Made by a program: the position numbers and the translations under genes. From positions 1 to 23,961 of IMG/VR virus record IMGVR_UViG_3300020219_000068: a stretch of DNA of 23,961 nt. One strand, given 5' to 3'. Below the pieces are notes generated by a model, which saw nothing but the letters and a program-made list of their open reading frames with translations, made no database searches and was not told where the DNA came from. This DNA comes from a virus. Below are positions 6,919 to 23,591 of the stretch, piece after piece (positions within the stretch are counted from its first letter, which is position 1; each line of letters begins with the position of its first letter).

Positions 6919-9075
6919 CTACAGGATCGCCGCTCGCAGTGATTCAACCTTGCTCGGCGAGCCGCGAAGAGCTCGCATGAGCCCGTCGTAGGCCGCAGCT
7001 TCCACCGCTCTTTTGACCTCCGCCACCGACTGCCCCGCCGCGCTCGCACCGCCACCGCCGCCGCCGCCCGAGATGTTGACGGTGACGTTAGAGACGATTG
7101 ACGGCGCGGCTCCGCCCTGCTCGTACTGGCGGTTCTGTTCGCGGCTGAGCACGCGCTCTCCCGGCGTGAGCAGCGCGGGCACGATGTCGCGGTTGATAAA
7201 AGGCCCGCCGACTCGTCCACCCGCCGCCAACCGCCGCGGCACCAACCCGCCCGAGTTGGCCCCGTAGTACACCGGAGTACCAGCCCCAAACGCAGAATTC
7301 GCCGGATCTAGCCCAGATCCCACGGCGGTTCCGCCAGCGAACGCTCCCGCGATCCCGCTGATGGCGCGCAAGACCAGCATCTTGATCGCGATCTGACCTA
7401 GGGTGTCCACGATCGCCTTTCCTGCTTTTTTAAAGTTGTTGGCCCAGGAGTCTGTCGCCGTGATGCTGTCCCAGATCGCAGGCGTCAGCGTGTTGGTCAG
7501 CGCCCCGCCAACCTCCGCCACAGCCTCCTTGCCCTGCTGCCGCAGGTCGCGTGCCTTGAGCAGGAACTCGTTGAGCCCTTCGCTGGCCCCGGCCGTGAGC
7601 GCCGTGAAACTTGAAGAGTCGAACTCTCCGCCGATAGAGATGGGCGTCGGCTTGCCCGGCAGCGGCGCGATGCGGTGCCGCGCCAGCGCGTCGGTGATCT
7701 TGAGCACCTGGTCAAGGCTGTTAAACGTGTCGTCGGCGGCGGTCGAGATGTTCCCCAGCGATTCCTGCCACATAGACCCGAACGCCGACGGCCCCGTGTT
7801 CTTCATGGCCTCGCGAATGTCGGCCGAGATCTGCGTGAAGCTGCGCTTGTTTTTGCGCACCACGTCGTCGTCGAGCAGCAGCGAATCCTCGATTCGCTGC
7901 TTGTCGTCGTCGAGCGACTTATAGAACCCGAGCGCTGCGGCGCTGCGCGGCCCGAAGATGTCGATGAGCGACTCGGTGAACTTCATCGAGACGGTGTTGT
8001 AGGCCACCGCGATCGCAGGCCCCAGCCGCTGGGGAAGCGACACAAAGAACCCGCGTGAAACCTGGTAGACCGCCTCCCAGCCCACGCTCACCGCGTCGGC
8101 CAGCCCCGCAAAGACGAGCGCCGCGCCCTCGTACGCGACCGCCTGAGCCAGCAGGATGATCGACTGCCCCATGCTCGCGAGCGCGGCGCGAGCCGCTCGG
8201 CCAGTCTCGCTCTCGCCGCTCAGCGCGTCGCTCACGGTGCGTGCCAGGTTGCCAAAGATGTCTGGCAGCGACGCCACGACGCTCGCAGCCTGGTTGAGCA
8301 GCCGAGCCGCCGAGTTTCCGAACTGCGCGATGATCCCAGCCTTGACGCCGGTCCACGCGAAGTTGATGCGGTCGAGCGCGTCGCGGTAGTTCGCGGCCGC
8401 TTGCACCTGCTCGTTAGAGAAAACCGCGCCAAGTTTCTGAGCCTCAGCCAGCCAGGCGCGAATCCGCTCAGGCCCCTCAGCCAGCACGCGCGTCATAGCC
8501 GCAGCGTTATCGCCAAAGAGCCTGGCTCCCAGCGACGCTCGCTCGGTGGTGTTCTCGATCGCCGCGAAGCGTTGCGACAGCTCAGGCAGCAGCTGCGACA
8601 TCGGCTTGACCTTGCCGTCAGCGCCTCGAGCCTCGATGCCTAGAGCTTTAAACGACTCGGCGGCTCTTCCTCCGCCTGTGCGTGCGAACAGGCCGGCGGC
8701 CTTGGTCAGCGTGCCCAGCGAGGCCGCGAACTCGTCAGGGTTGATGTTTCCCACCAGCTTGGCAAGGTACTGCCCGCCAGAAAGTTCCTGAAACGTAAGC
8801 CCGAGTTCGGTGGCCTTGGCTTCAAGACCGTCGAGCTTCTCGACGGTCTGGTCGATCGAGCTGAGCACCGCGCGAGCCCCGAAGACAGCCGCGAGCGCCA
8901 CCGCGTAGGTCTTGAGGCTCCCGACGACGCGCCCGATCGACGACGCGACTCGGTCAGTCTTCTGCTGGCTCTTTTCGGCCGCCGCGCCCACGCCCATCAC
9001 GTTGCCGATGATGCCTTTGATGACCGTGGAAGCTTGGTCTTGCGCCGCGATGCTGACCGTCAGTTGCTTGGCCAC
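6919..9075 (-). CDS. Tape measure protein
   Basis: 718 aa from GTG at 9075, with AGGGG about nine bases upstream. The protein is rich in Ala, helix and coiled-coil-prone sequence at the N-terminus (residues 1-50). It has hydrophobic stretches at about 56-72 (AVALAAVFGARAVL) and about 300-330 (ILLAQAVAYEGAALVFAGLA). The C-terminus carries the motif FINRDIVPALLTPGERVLS at about 626-644, a well-known signature of lambda gpH-type tape measures, followed by a run of seven glycines and a short helix. The tape measure sets tail length, is wrapped by the chaperones encoded just upstream, and leaves the tail during DNA injection. At the lambda rule of thumb of roughly 0.15 nm per residue, 718 aa would give a tail of about 110 nm; this is inference only. 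Confidence 0.92.
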   Translation of the reverse strand: MAKQLTVSIAAQDQASTVIKGIIGNVMGVGAAAEKSQQKTDRVASSIGRVVGSLKTYAVALAAVFGARAVLSSIDQTVEKLDGLEAKATELGLTFQELSGGQYLAKLVGNINPDEFAASLGTLTKAAGLFARTGGGRAAESFKALGIEARGADGKVKPMSQLLPELSQRFAAIENTTERASLGARLFGDNAAAMTRVLAEGPERIRAWLAEAQKLGAVFSNEQVQAAANYRDALDRINFAWTGVKAGIIAQFGNSAARLLNQAASVVASLPDIFGNLARTVSDALSGESETGRAARAALASMGQSIILLAQAVAYEGAALVFAGLADAVSVGWEAVYQVSRGFFVSLPQRLGPAIAVAYNTVSMKFTESLIDIFGPRSAAALGFYKSLDDDKQRIEDSLLLDDDVVRKNKRSFTQISADIREAMKNTGPSAFGSMWQESLGNISTAADDTFNSLDQVLKITDALARHRIAPLPGKPTPISIGGEFDSSSFTALTAGASEGLNEFLLKARDLRQQGKEAVAEVGGALTNTLTPAIWDSITATDSWANNFKKAGKAIVDTLGQIAIKMLVLRAISGIAGAFAGGTAVGSGLDPANSAFGAGTPVYYGANSGGLVPRRLAAGGRVGGPFINRDIVPALLTPGERVLSREQNRQYEQGGAAPSIVSNVTVNISGGGGGGGASAAGQSVAEVKRAVEAAAYDGLMRALRGSPSKVESLRAAIL

Positions 9076-9085
9076 CGTCTACGCC

Positions 9086-9152
9086 CCTGTCTGTAAGCCT
9101 GTCTGTAAGCCTGTCTAGAAACCTGTCTAGAAACCTGTCTAGAAACCTGTCT
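9086..9152 (-). repeat. 12-bp tandem repeat across the chaperone stop and tape-measure leader
   Basis: Five and a half copies of a 12-base unit. Read on the plus strand, units at 9086 and 9098 are CCTGTCTGTAAG. Units at 9110, 9122 and 9134 are CCTGTCTAGAAA, and a partial unit follows at 9146. On the coding strand the period is a multiple of three, so the frame that ends the chaperone extension meets TAG in each of the three CCTGTCTAGAAA units. The array ends about 10 bases before the tape-measure GTG. Confidence 0.9.
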
Positions 9153-9540
9153 TGCCTTTGCCGTCTGCCTCGTCTGCGGCCTTAAACAGCCGAGCCACCT
9201 CCGCCTCAAAGTACAGCACCGCCTCAAAGAACTCTGGGCTGATGTCGCCCCCGCTCAAGGCTCGCAGCGTTTCGCCTCCCAGCCGGTTCAGCCCGGCCAG
9301 ATCCACAAAGAACTCTTGGCACGCCTCAGCGTCGCCGACCAGTTCGATTTTCGGGTCCGGCCGCAGCACCGACCCAACCTCGCCGCACGCCGCGCACTTT
9401 AAGGCCGACCCTGATCTCTGCTCTGGCGTGCTTTGCAGGCACGCCGCGCAGGCTTCCCAGTCGCTCTTGCGCGCCCCCCAGCGATCGCGAGCCTCGCTCC
9501 GGCCAGCCGTGACTGACACCCAGAGCGCCGCTCGCGTCAA
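9139..9540 (-). CDS. Tail assembly chaperone, -1 frame extension (lambda gpT-like half of gpGT)
   Basis: 133-codon frame that lacks a good start of its own: its first usable codon is TTG at 9540, with no ribosome site, and it is open upstream into the A8 run. It lies in the -1 frame relative to the preceding gene, and the joint product would be about 278 aa (144 residues of the first frame, one Thr, then this frame). The N-terminal part contains two CxxC pairs (CAAC and CAAC) 16 residues apart, a candidate zinc site. The rest is helical, acidic and ends at a TAG within the 12-bp repeats. In lambda the gpGT fusion recruits tail tube subunits to the tape measure, and the present position between tube and tape measure is the same. 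Independent translation of this frame looks unlikely. Confidence 0.8.
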   Translation of the reverse strand: MTRAALWVSVTAGRSEARDRWGARKSDWEACAACLQSTPEQRSGSALKCAACGEVGSVLRPDPKIELVGDAEACQEFFVDLAGLNRLGGETLRALSGGDISPEFFEAVLYFEAEVARLFKAADEADGKGKTGF

Positions 9541-9550
9541 GGTTTTTTTT
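9486..9550 (-). promoter_or_regulatory. Programmed -1 ribosomal frameshift signal
   Basis: On the coding strand, the first chaperone frame ends GAA CAA AAA AAA CCT TGA. This gives a heptamer A-AAA-AAA (A8 run at 9543-9550) in the correct phase for tandem -1 slippage, just ahead of the TGA at 9537-9539. Six bases after the run a stem begins. CGCGAGC (9530-9536) pairs with GCTCGCG (9486-9492). After a symmetric 2x2 internal loop, CGCTC (9523-9527) pairs with GAGCG (9495-9499), closing a 23-base loop. Slippery site, 5-9 base spacer and stem are the classical elements of such signals. The downstream frame is exactly the -1 frame. Confidence 0.82.
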
Positions 9551-9974
9551 GTTCGTCGCTCAACCCTTGGATCGCCGCCAGGAAAACTCGGTCAACGTCT
9601 TCGCCTGTCGGCAGCGCGTCGTAGACCTCGCGGTCGCAAGCCGTGCCCCACTGCGCGTGCGCAGAAGGCTTGACGTTCAACACCTCGCCGTTCTCGCAGT
9701 GCCTGAGCCCTTCAGCGCCGACGACCGCCACGCACACCACTGCGAGCTGGTAGCGTGCGATCGCCGCCACGCTGGCACCGTTGTCGTAGCGAGTAGCCGA
9801 CATGATCTCTGACTGCACGCTGCGGCGCAGCCGCCGCACGATCACCGCCGACCCGTCGCTCAGCGCCACGCGGTGCCGGTTGACCGCTCCGCCCACAACC
9901 GCTACCGACACGCCGAACTCTACTCGTGCCGCAACCTCATCATTAACCACGCCGGGCACAGACGAATTACTCAT
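9537..9974 (-). CDS. Tail assembly chaperone, first frame (lambda gpG-like)
   Basis: 145 aa from ATG at 9974 (a TTG at 9977 is also in frame). AAAGGGA about six bases upstream supports the ATG. The sequence has an N-terminal beta region (residues ~10-60, with RVEFGVSVAVVGG and RHRVALSDGSAVIVRRL) and a helical middle. It ends in an acidic tail, LSDEQKKP. It has no catalytic motif. Its place between the tail tube gene and the tape measure, and the slippery A8 run in its last codons, mark it as the gpG-type chaperone made in excess over the frameshifted fusion. Such proteins coat the tape measure and are absent from the finished tail. No family domain is recognisable from residues alone, so the assignment rests on the synteny and frameshift. 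Confidence 0.78.
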   Translation of the reverse strand: MSNSSVPGVVNDEVAARVEFGVSVAVVGGAVNRHRVALSDGSAVIVRRLRRSVQSEIMSATRYDNGASVAAIARYQLAVVCVAVVGAEGLRHCENGEVLNVKPSAHAQWGTACDREVYDALPTGEDVDRVFLAAIQGLSDEQKKP

Positions 9975-10031: not shown

Positions 10032-11237
10032 TCAACCAAACAGGTGGTAAAAGAAGATCTCATCGTCCGCCGTGCCCGTGAACTTCACGGTTGGGCCCAC
10101 CGTACGCACGCCGTTGCGGTCCCCGAACGCAGGCGAGCCTGTGAGCTGCACCGCCGGTCCGTGCATGATGAACATCCCGTTGCCGTGCGTCACAGCCCCG
10201 ACTTCGTGAATCATCTCAAAGGTCGTTCCAGCGTTAATAAACCCGATGAAGTCGAACACCGCTGGCAGCACGTACTCAGGGTCGATCGTGGCCGTGTACT
10301 CGCGTCCGCTGATGAGCGTGTCAAGGTAGCCGCTGCCCGCGTAGCTGTTGTCGTTGATCGTCTCGCGTGAGGCCAGCGTGTTGTTGAGGTTGACCTCCAG
10401 AGCCGTCAGCACAGGCTTGTAGTCTGCGCTGGCGGTGCGCACGATCAGCGTCACGTTCTTGTTGACGACCGGCGTGACGCCCGCGACCGGCACCGCGGTG
10501 ATTGCCGCCCCAATGCGCGGCGAGATCCCGTTGCTGTCAAACACTGGGGCGCCCTTAAACTCGCTCTTAAACAGCAGCGGCTCGCCCAGCTTGGCGCTGT
10601 ACGTGCCGGTGGCGCGAGCCCCGATCACGGTGTAGCGAACCCCGCCTTCGCGCTTCTCGACCGTGAACTCGTCGTTGGGCGCGGCGTCGGTCGCGGTCAC
10701 CGGGCTGAAGGCGAACCCGCCGTTGGCAGGCCCGCTCGTGCTCAGCGCCGACACCTGCGTGGCGGCGAAGTTGTAGAGCGTGTCGCCCGAGATGAACGCG
10801 CTGGTCACGGGCACGTAGAAGATCTTCCCGTTGCTGTACTTGACAAACTTTCCAATCTTGGTCGAAGCTCCCAAGGTGGTCGCGTTTCCGATCGTTTGTC
10901 CGATCTTGAACGTGCCTCCGCTGGGAGCGTTGACCGCGATCGCCTTGACCTGCGTCGAAGCCATGCTTAGGCCAGCGAGCTGGCGGTGAAAAGGTGCCGC
11001 CACCGCCGCCCCACCGCCCACAACCTCGCCCATAAAAGTGATAGTCTGGATCGCCTGTCCCGGCAGGCTGGGGCGCCGCGCCAGGCTAGCCTGGATCAAG
11101 TCGCGCTCGTACTGGTTCACGTCGAGCGTGACGTCTGACTCCTTGAAGTTTCCCGCGAAGTCCGCCGCCGCCAGCGTCTCCTCGGTCCCCGCCGTCGCCT
11201 GTACCTTCAGCCCGATCTGTGCCGACCGCGTAAACAT
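10032..11237 (-). CDS. Major tail tube protein
   Basis: 401 aa, starting at ATG 11237 with AGGAGGAA about 8 bases upstream. The N-terminus (FTRSAQIGLKVQATAGTEETL) is a typical opening of phage tail tube proteins, in which a strand with GxK..xAG.E leads into a beta sandwich. The protein is mostly beta-rich, with many Thr, Val and Gly residues. A central insertion at about 150-240 includes VTATDAAPNDEFTVEKREG. The last third (EVNLNNTLASRETIND, SGREYTATIDPEY and the C-terminal FTGTADDEIFFYHLFG) also fits the family. Subunits stack as hexameric rings around the tape measure to form the non-contractile tube. The position just before the frameshifted chaperones is diagnostic. It is longer than lambda gpV (246 aa), so extra surface domains are likely. 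Confidence 0.87.
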   Translation of the reverse strand: MFTRSAQIGLKVQATAGTEETLAAADFAGNFKESDVTLDVNQYERDLIQASLARRPSLPGQAIQTITFMGEVVGGGAAVAAPFHRQLAGLSMASTQVKAIAVNAPSGGTFKIGQTIGNATTLGASTKIGKFVKYSNGKIFYVPVTSAFISGDTLYNFAATQVSALSTSGPANGGFAFSPVTATDAAPNDEFTVEKREGGVRYTVIGARATGTYSAKLGEPLLFKSEFKGAPVFDSNGISPRIGAAITAVPVAGVTPVVNKNVTLIVRTASADYKPVLTALEVNLNNTLASRETINDNSYAGSGYLDTLISGREYTATIDPEYVLPAVFDFIGFINAGTTFEMIHEVGAVTHGNGMFIMHGPAVQLTGSPAFGDRNGVRTVGPTVKFTGTADDEIFFYHLFG

Positions 11238-15040: not shown

Positions 15041-15090
15041 TGCTCGATCCTTTCAAAAGCAGGTTTTCCCCGCCTATGCCTTCTAATTCC

Positions 15091-15128
15091 TCGATCTCTA
15101 ATCTCTCGATCTCTCGATCCCTGATCTC
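15091..15128. repeat. Short direct repeats (TCGATCTC) in the capsid-decoration gap
   Basis: The plus strand holds TCGATCTC at 15091 and 15106, then TCGATCCC at 15114, with related CTGATCTCG after it. On the coding strand this is a purine-rich GAGATCGA tract between the capsid stop and the decoration gene. It may act as an unstructured spacer; nothing else is seen in this gap. Confidence 0.5.
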
Positions 15129-15130
15129 GC

Positions 15131-17748
15131 TTAGGCTCCCGCGTTTTTGTACCCAGACTCGTGCTGGACCGCGACCGCGCCGAAGTCGTAGATGATCTCT
15201 TGTTCCTGGCCCAGAATGGACCCGTTGCCAACCGGCGTCAAGATCGGCTCGCGGCGTCCCTGCAAGAAGTTCACCTGAATCAGCGGGTACATTGCCGGAT
15301 CGCCCGCGAGGTACCAGGCCGTGGCGGTGCCCGGGCTGAGCCCAAGGTACGGGCTATCGAGCGCCACCAAGCGGCGCTTGCCACCAGCAAAGACGTTGGG
15401 GCGAGTGTTGTTACCCTCGCCGCTGGTCGAGTCATAAGGCGACATCGTGAGCCGGTCAGCCACGATGCCAAGCTGCGGCGGCGTGATGAGAAAGCGCGGC
15501 GTGATGGTGATCGGCACCGCCTCAGAGCCGAAGTCGCGTTGCGTCACCATCGCCAGGTAGGCCGCTTCGAGCGACGTGTTGGACAGAGCCGTCGCCGTCC
15601 CCGCCAAGTTCCGGTTCCCGGCGCTGAAGAGCGTGTTGCCGTTGGGCATGGTCTGGCTGTTGGCGCTCAGGATGGTCATCACCGCCACCTCAGGCGCGAG
15701 CTTGGCGATCACGCCCCAGCGCTGCAACGAGGCCGTGAACCCGCCTAGATCGTCGTTGATGAACATCTGCCGCGTCCAGCTCAGCTTGCGGCCTTGCGTG
15801 CTGATCTTGATCGACTGCTTGCGCTCGTTGAGGGTGGCCTCGGTGGGGCTCAAGCCCTCCGGGATCAACTTCATGCCTTCGAGCGCACTGAGCGTGATGA
15901 TGTCGGTGGTCTTAAAGTCGTTGCTGCTCCCGATGCGACAGAACTGCTCGTAGATCGTCGGCCACAAGAGGAAGCTGGCCATAAGAACCTTGTTCTGCAC
16001 GTTGCTCAGCAGCGACGGGAAGTCAGAGGAGCCGTGCCCGTAGCCCATGCTCGCCCCGCCGCCACCACCAAAGGCCGCCGCCAGCACGTCGTCGTCGTAG
16101 CGATACGAGGCAGGGTTGAAGCGCAGGCCCTGCGCCTGAACGCGACGCTCGACGCTGCGCTGCGCCATGTCCATCAGCTTGAACCGGCGCAGCCCGTTGG
16201 ATTCAGCTTCAGAGAACGCGCGGCGAACCTCAGCACCGTTGGCGTAGCCAAGGTTGGCGGCAAAGCGCCCTCGCCCGTCGGTATCGCTGGCCGCGCGGTC
16301 GATGATCGCCGAGTCCATCTTGTTGAGAAGCATCAGCTCCATCGCGCGTGCCTCGCGTGCCGAGCCCGAGTCGCCGACCAAGAGCGAGCCGCCGTTCACC
16401 CCACCACCAAGCGGGGCTCGGCTCTTGGCAAGGTACGCGATCAACGCAGTCTGAAACGCCGAGGCGTCCACGGTTGCGGTTCGCACCGCAGCGTTGGCGA
16501 GCGCCAGAACGCCTTCATCGCTCTTGAAACCAGCCGCCGCCGCGTCGATCAGGCTCATCTGCTCGTTTCGCTCAGCCGCGGTCTGCTCAGTCTGAGCTTG
16601 CACCAGCAAAGCTGGCCTCACGCTCACACTCTCTAGGCTCGCGCCGTTCTCGTTCTGATTCTCGTTCTCGGACCCATCAACACTCAGCACGTCCATCGCA
16701 TTCACCTTTCCAATGTTGCTCGCGTTGCGCGAGACGTTCCTAGCACTCGCAACCATGACACCTCGGCCACCATTCACACCAGCGACCTTGGCCGCTGGCG
16801 CCGAGAACCTCTGATTCATCACACCGATCACGTTCTCGATCGTGTCAACGCCGTCCGCCAGCCCCTGCGCCACCGCAGCCTTGCCCACCCACATATGCCC
16901 GGTCGCCACGCCGCCGACCTGCGCCGCGCTCATGCCTCTCCCGCGTGCAACCGCCTCGGTGAACATTTCTTGCAGCGCGTTGACGATGCCGCGCCAGTGC
17001 GCGATCGCCGCCTCAGAGATCGCCACGCCCGGCACATGCTCGCCCTTGACGCTGACAACCTTGCCGTCCGCGCTCGTGAGCACGTCTGAGCGGATGAGGT
17101 GAACATCGACTCCCTCGTTCTTGGCTTGGCGTGAGCTATCGACGGCGACGATGTACGTGCCGATCGAGCCCGCCATGCCGTCAAGCGGCAAGAAGACTTT
17201 TTCCGCCTGCGAAACGAGGTAGTACGCCGCCGACGCCGCGAGGCCATCGATGAACGACCACACCGGCTTAGACTTGCTGTCCGAACCAGCAGGTGCGCGC
17301 GACGCGAAGATCGAATCAGCCGCCTGCTTGAGCCCGTCGGCCGAACCGCCCGGCGAATCAGCGCGCAGCATTATCGACCCGACCTGGTCATCAGCTCGCG
17401 CCGTGCGCATGGCCAGGTCGATCGCTTCCAGGCTCGTGCCCCGATGCTGGCTCGACCCGTTGACCATCGACGCTCGCTTGGCGATCACGCCCGCGATAGG
17501 CACCACCGCCACCGACCCGACGCGCTGGTAGAGCATCCTGCCGTTAGAGTCAGTGACCACGTCGGACCGAGGCGAGAGCTTCGTTCGCGCTCGATCTTGC
17601 GGCCGTCCGTTGACCACCTGAGCCACCTGCGTGACGTCCAGCCGCACGCCCGAGGAGTGCCGCAGCAGGACGCCGCACACGCGCTCGAGCACCATCGGTT
17701 CCATCATCCAGCAGGTGCTTGTCAAGGCCGCGAGAAGCTGCGAACTGT

Positions 17749-17752
<4 letters not shown>
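15131..17752 (-). CDS. Prohead protease fused to major capsid protein
   Basis: 873 aa in one frame. The ATG at 17752 overlaps the portal stop by ATGA. Residues ~75-320 are a ClpP/S49-type protease: the oxyanion strand ADSPGGSADG (131-140), the nucleophile S174 in DGLAASAAYY, the following GSIGTYIV, and the C-terminal ATGHMWVGKAAVAQGLADGV. Residues ~325-375 are a linker with an Asn/Glu-rich patch. Residues ~375-570 are helical and scaffold-like. From SSDFPSLLSNVQNK (~575) to the end lies an HK97-fold capsid protein with the typical TRQMFINDDLGGFT (660-673) and GNTLFSAGNRNLAG. Fusions of this kind are known in other phages; the protease is expected to assemble with the shell and cut the linker region. 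The usual S49 catalytic Lys position (+52 from the Ser) is T226 here by my alignment, with K231 nearby. Confidence 0.9.
16647..16670 (-). repeat. Asn/Glu-Gln hexanucleotide repeat in the protease-capsid linker
   Basis: Four units on the plus strand: TTCTCG, TTCTGA, TTCTCG and TTCTCG. They encode the linker stretch ENENQNEN (about residues 362-369). The period is six bases, so changes in copy number would keep the reading frame. Confidence 0.85.
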
Positions 17753-19553
<1,801 letters not shown>

Positions 19554-23524: not shown

Positions 23525-23563
23525 CGTTCATCCTTTCAAAGGTCACACCGTTCATTTGTTTGC

Positions 23564-23591
23564 ACAACCACACTCACAACCACACTCACAC
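23564..23591. repeat. 12-bp tandem repeat in an intergenic gap
   Basis: Two units of ACAACCACACTC (23564-23575 and 23576-23587) and a partial third. They lie in the 78-base gap between the cut-off gene and the 185-aa gene, ahead of its ribosome site. Confidence 0.75.

Follow-up and report, generated by a model that had tools for sequence, protein, structure and literature searches.

Two overlapping reading frames of the window (a 23,961 bp IMG/VR virus record with a G+C content of 64.6%), here called G and T, are very probably linked by a lambda-type programmed −1 ribosomal frameshift that would yield a minor GT product. The first-pass annotation had proposed that a −1 frameshift cassette joins two tail chaperone frames at this site, and this proposal is supported by gene position, by the arrangement and codon usage of the frames and, above all, by the layout observed in relatives. 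The features of the cassette and of the genes that flank it are listed in Table 1.

Table 1. Features of the G/T cassette and its flanking tail genes (positions in the window).
Feature	Coordinates	Strand	Details
Tail-tube (major tail) protein, upstream of G	10032..11237	−	tblastn to Rhodobacter phage RcZahn gp25, E 9e-7
G, zero-frame tail assembly chaperone candidate	9537..9974	−	145 aa, ATG 9974
A8 run	9543..9550	−	includes in-phase slippery heptamer A_AAA_AAA (9549-9543)
Predicted stimulatory stem	9486..9536	−	7 + 8 pairs, begins 6 nt past the A8 run
T, −1 frame domain	9139..9543	−	Thr + 133 aa, stop TAG 9141-9139
Tape measure protein, downstream of T	6919..9075	−	PHROG tape-measure families, best E 2.5e-31

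The ATG of G is preceded by a Shine-Dalgarno-like AAAGGGA, with TTG 9977 as an alternative start one codon earlier, and the protein ends in DEQKKP. At its 3' end the frame reads GAC GAA CAA AAA AAA CCT TGA, so that the slippery heptamer is in phase and the zero-frame TGA (9539-9537) falls within six bases of the A8 run, as had been noted from the first inspection. No other homopolymer in the window reaches a length of 8. A back-slip by one base reads AAA AAA ACC TTG ACG and enters a −1 frame of 134 codons without a stop, which remains open to the TAG of T. The predicted GT fusion thus has 278 aa, made up of residues 1-144 of G, a single Thr and 133 further residues, and the corresponding figures of the first-pass annotation are correct. 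The sequence CCTTGA separates the run from the predicted stem, whose start at 9536 confirms the spacing of six bases given earlier. The outer helix of seven pairs (9536-9530/9492-9486) and the 2x2 internal loop also stand as described, and the inner helix, previously given five pairs, actually has eight (9527-9520/9502-9495), including one U.G.

The main genes found in the window are on the minus strand, where terminase is followed in turn by portal, capsid protease/major capsid and the head-tail genes, and then by tail tube, G, T and tape measure. The G/T pair thus sits between a tail-tube gene that was identified by homology, the product of which also aligns with annotated tail tube proteins, and a tape measure gene that was identified with PHROGs. 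Note that a 12-bp tandem repeat (9086-9152, 5.6 copies, ACAGGTTTCTAG type) fills the space from T to the tape measure gene, and that T and the tape measure share a frame, separated only by four TAG codons of which three are within the repeats. Since TAG also stops the tape measure gene, readthrough from T into the tape measure is not suggested. Other short tandem repeats (15082-15128, 17860-17968 and 23563-23590) are located between genes and in the portal C-terminus, where they encode NQ/NGNGGKDDG. The protease and major capsid protein occupy one 873-aa reading frame (15131-17752) that resembles the 'major capsid and protease fusion protein' of the Rhodobacter RcOceanus group.

A codon-usage model was built from 13 further genes of the window and used for scoring. 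The −1 frame downstream of the heptamer gave +0.26 bits/codon and G gave +0.28, as compared with −0.68 for the downstream zero frame and −0.47 for the −2 frame, both of which contain stops. The only start candidates near the beginning of T are TTG 9540, which lacks a Shine-Dalgarno sequence (duplex +0.1 kcal/mol), and GTG 9519, which is inside the stem (duplex −2.6 kcal/mol). There is thus no credible independent start for the whole T domain, in agreement with the earlier statement that this −1 frame has no good start of its own. Folding of the 81-nt stretch is modestly more stable than that of dinucleotide shuffles (z = −2.1). Among all 66-nt windows on the same strand 0.46% fold equally well or better than the stem, a value that is 1.1% for GC-matched 66-nt windows, and a stem of at least 15 pairs starting 5-9 nt downstream is present at 0.44% of positions.

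Homology searches with G and T returned no family match in Pfam or PHROG, and hhalign profile comparisons gave no hit between them and the G and T proteins of relatives. A search of the phage collection found no relative of G, and among viral contigs the close relatives of G, T, the tape measure and the tail tube were confined to just one near-identical contig, which was also the only match when the A8 cassette was searched for as a sequence pattern. This second contig has an identical A8 cassette and is 99.92% identical to the window over 11 kb, with nine differences. Single-sequence AlphaFold2 models had a mean pLDDT of 40 for G and 48 for T, too poor for fold comparison. CxxC motifs, which are possible zinc sites, are observed in many T domains with otherwise unalignable sequences (L006, L011, L013, L014, L015 and L109), and the window's T carries CAAC-x15-CAAC at 9444-9369. 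Homology of this T to RcZahn gp28 was considered on account of the shared CxxC motifs and set aside, as it had no BLASTP or hhalign support. Similarity to chaperone families is not a strict requirement for the G/GT class, as such proteins diverge fast.

Because no homologues of G or T could be detected, we followed the tail-tube relatives as the strongest test of the frameshift. RcZahn gp25 leads on to phages of Rhizobium, Agrobacterium, Alteromonas, Vibrio and Synechococcus. All of the reference phages with a readable region contain, between the tail tube and the tape measure, a reading frame with an in-phase −1 heptamer near its end, followed by a −1 extension of 100-132 aa (90-140 aa across all readable relatives); the region of RHph_Y1_11 is incomplete, as its record starts within it. 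In a wider survey we used two tail-tube alignments, tighter than a 12-protein alignment that was too divergent as a search query, against viral contigs, together with one genome scan. At 97 of the resulting loci the sequence continues for 900 nt or more beyond the tail-tube gene, and these were searched up to a limit of 1.5 kb. A rule-based heptamer candidate is present in 94 of them, the great majority being A_AAA_AAC and a few G_GGA_AAC or A_AAA_AAG, and A_AAA_AAA was found in none of the approximately 97 surveyed relatives. Many of the 94 are close kin rather than independent cases, so the independence of the survey rests on the dozen divergent reference phages. At one of the three missed loci, L111, A_AAA_AAC is present in a G frame that lies past the 1.5-kb limit; the other two, L023 and L028, have other genes there and not a G/T pair devoid of a signal. 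In most relatives a stop directly follows the heptamer, with no conserved start codon at that point. Separate frames with conserved starts and no slippery run, the arrangement that the first-pass annotation had named as evidence against a frameshift, were not found among the readable relatives. Furthermore, the annotation of the Rhodobacter phage RcOceanus, which has portal and capsid proteins that match those of the window, gives the tail assembly chaperone as a joined gene.

Additional inspection of these loci revealed several annotation problems. The RcZahn genes gp27 and gp28 (L006:6700-7601) are annotated as separate despite an in-phase −1 heptamer that joins them, and the same is true of the Rhizobium and Agrobacterium equivalents (L011, L013, L014 and L019); some of the annotated T starts in these phages fall well inside the −1 frame. 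The G protein of S-LBS1 (L009:5613-5993) is labeled 'ATPase component of the ABC-type cobalamin/Fe3+-siderophores transport system', which is evidently a misannotation. RcZahn-like tail regions also occur on ~96-kb contigs of three bacterial assemblies, a Burkholderiaceae MAG, a Proteobacteria MAG and Paracoccus sp. MKU1 (L111, L112 and L113), and these contigs are probably whole phages carried along with their hosts. Two Vibrio phages reached through the tape measure (L007 and L008) were set aside as comparators, since neither is close to the window; they have no A- or G-type heptamer, and their only candidates, C_CCT_TTT/T_TTT_TTG, lie ~70 nt ahead of the stop and have short extensions.

When folding was analyzed across the survey, 55% of the 73 distinct 60-nt stretches that follow a heptamer had a folding energy within the lowest 10% for their own locus, with a median percentile of 0.082, and the stem of the window ranks sixth strongest in this comparison. 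In a cyanophage-like group of 25 sequences a fixed-register stem, which pairs columns 14-25 with columns 30-41, has a covariation score of 0.323, relative to a mean of 0.222 for shuffled alignments; none of 500 shuffles reached this score, which also exceeds that of every slid register, although the shuffles are uncorrected for kinship and the slid registers are compared with a stem that was derived from the same sequences. The consensus fold of this group recovers six central pairs, three of them with compensatory changes. The window's own stem lies outside this covariation evidence, since only one near-identical second copy of it was found.

These observations are consistent with the following mechanism. 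Most ribosomes would end at the TGA of G and release the 145-aa product. A minority, delayed by the stem six bases on, would slip on A_AAA_AAA, with both lysine tRNAs shifting back by one base into the −1 frame, and the resulting junction would read Gln-Lys-Lys-Thr-Leu-Thr and lead on to the 278-aa GT. By analogy with the chaperone roles reviewed in PMC5009743, G together with a few GT molecules would coat the tape measure protein, recruit tail-tube subunits and then be discarded. We infer the slippage itself, its rate, its ribosomal origin and the chaperone roles from the sequence. Counted against this reading are the lack of a family for G and T and a heptamer unlike those of all surveyed relatives. 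Note also that A_AAA_AAA is a weaker shift site in E. coli than A_AAA_AAG (PMC5009743).

The A8 run also raises an alternative that was absent from the first-pass annotation, which is that slippage of RNA polymerase on this run, alone or jointly with the ribosome, makes the fusion. Specifically, one added A would give CAA AAA AAA ACC TTG and an identical 278-aa protein, and the run, which exceeds the need of the heptamer by one A, is an A8 found in no surveyed relative. Runs longer than seven A's have been cited as sites of programmed transcriptional slippage (PMC3711429), and in Deinococcus and Nostoc it has been suggested that slippage on eight A's is productive in IS elements (PMC1088944). 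A length of eight is the lower edge for such programmed slippage (PMC1088944; PMC3711429). However, in most bacteria no selection against A runs is evident below nine (PMC1088944), a ribosomal but not a polymerase slip is expected to come with a strong stem at canonical spacing, and the relatives have A_AAA_AAC or G_GGA_AAC without long homopolymers. We consider polymerase slippage unlikely, and on the basis of this stem and of the short-run heptamers in relatives a ribosomal slip is favored. It seems similarly improbable that this lineage has swapped the ribosomal A_AAA_AAC of its relatives for A8 so that the polymerase, alone or with the ribosome, sets the G:GT ratio; if true, the tail-chaperone ratio would be partly under transcriptional slippage.

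Separate translation of T by stop-start coupling at TTGA, with no fusion made, is very unlikely. TTG 9540 does overlap the TGA beginning at 9539 in an arrangement that is typical of termination-reinitiation, but TTG is a weak start, it has the unfavorable Shine-Dalgarno duplex given above and the stem right behind it, and no start codon is conserved at this point in most relatives, where the heptamer is followed by the stop. Finally, homopolymers are error-prone and one more A would fuse the frames, but a sequencing or assembly error that conceals a true A9 and one continuous G-T gene is hardly credible, given that the second contig also has A8 despite nine other base differences and that in relatives this point likewise has two frames, and the runs there are shorter.

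The −1 frameshift that yields gpG and gpGT in lambda has counterparts in long-tailed phages (Levin 1993; Xu 2004; both according to PMC5009743). Like lambda, the window has the order tail tube, G, T and tape measure, −1 overlapping frames and an in-phase slippery heptamer shortly before the stop of G. The sizes of the lambda G and T products are near those of the window's G and T. Specifically, the window has the gene position of this class, a coding, overlapping and startless −1 frame and a heptamer of the X_XXY_YYZ form that is kept in relatives. It differs from lambda in that neither G nor T has recognizable similarity to known chaperone families, in its A_AAA_AAA within A8 and in its stem of 7 + 8 pairs. 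The closest parallels include the Synechococcus phages S-LBS1 and S-CBS1, RcZahn and the Rhizobium RHph and L338C phages, which like the window have a related tail tube upstream, a −1 heptamer at the end of G that opens an extension of ~100-132 aa and is usually followed at 4-9 nt by a hairpin, and many T parts with CxxC motifs. Unlike the window these phages mostly have A_AAA_AAC with an immediate stop, or in some cases G_GGA_AAC or A_AAA_AAG, and their G and T proteins cannot be aligned with those of the window. A_AAA_AAA is itself a listed ribosomal frameshift motif (PMC3711429), and its combination with a stem-loop has been proven to promote frameshifting in an IS cluster (PMC4066793). Those IS sites share the heptamer and the downstream stem-loop with the window but belong to transposase genes and not to tail chaperones (PMC4066793; PMC3711429). 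The earlier suggestion of a distinct design, based on the eight-A run and its stem, is not supported, since A_AAA_AAA is documented and hairpins are usual among relatives; the supposed design is one heptamer substitution in an ordinary cassette.

The cassette is real, previously unannotated and of a well-known kind, differing only by its eight A's from the A-AAA-AAC of relatives, and it leaves knowledge of G/GT frameshifting unchanged. The analysis does show that the annotations of RcZahn, the RHph phages, S-LBS1 and S-CBS1 split the pair despite an intact signal. For a phage lineage that otherwise belongs to no family, genome position together with the frameshift signal is enough to give the tail chaperones a firm identity.
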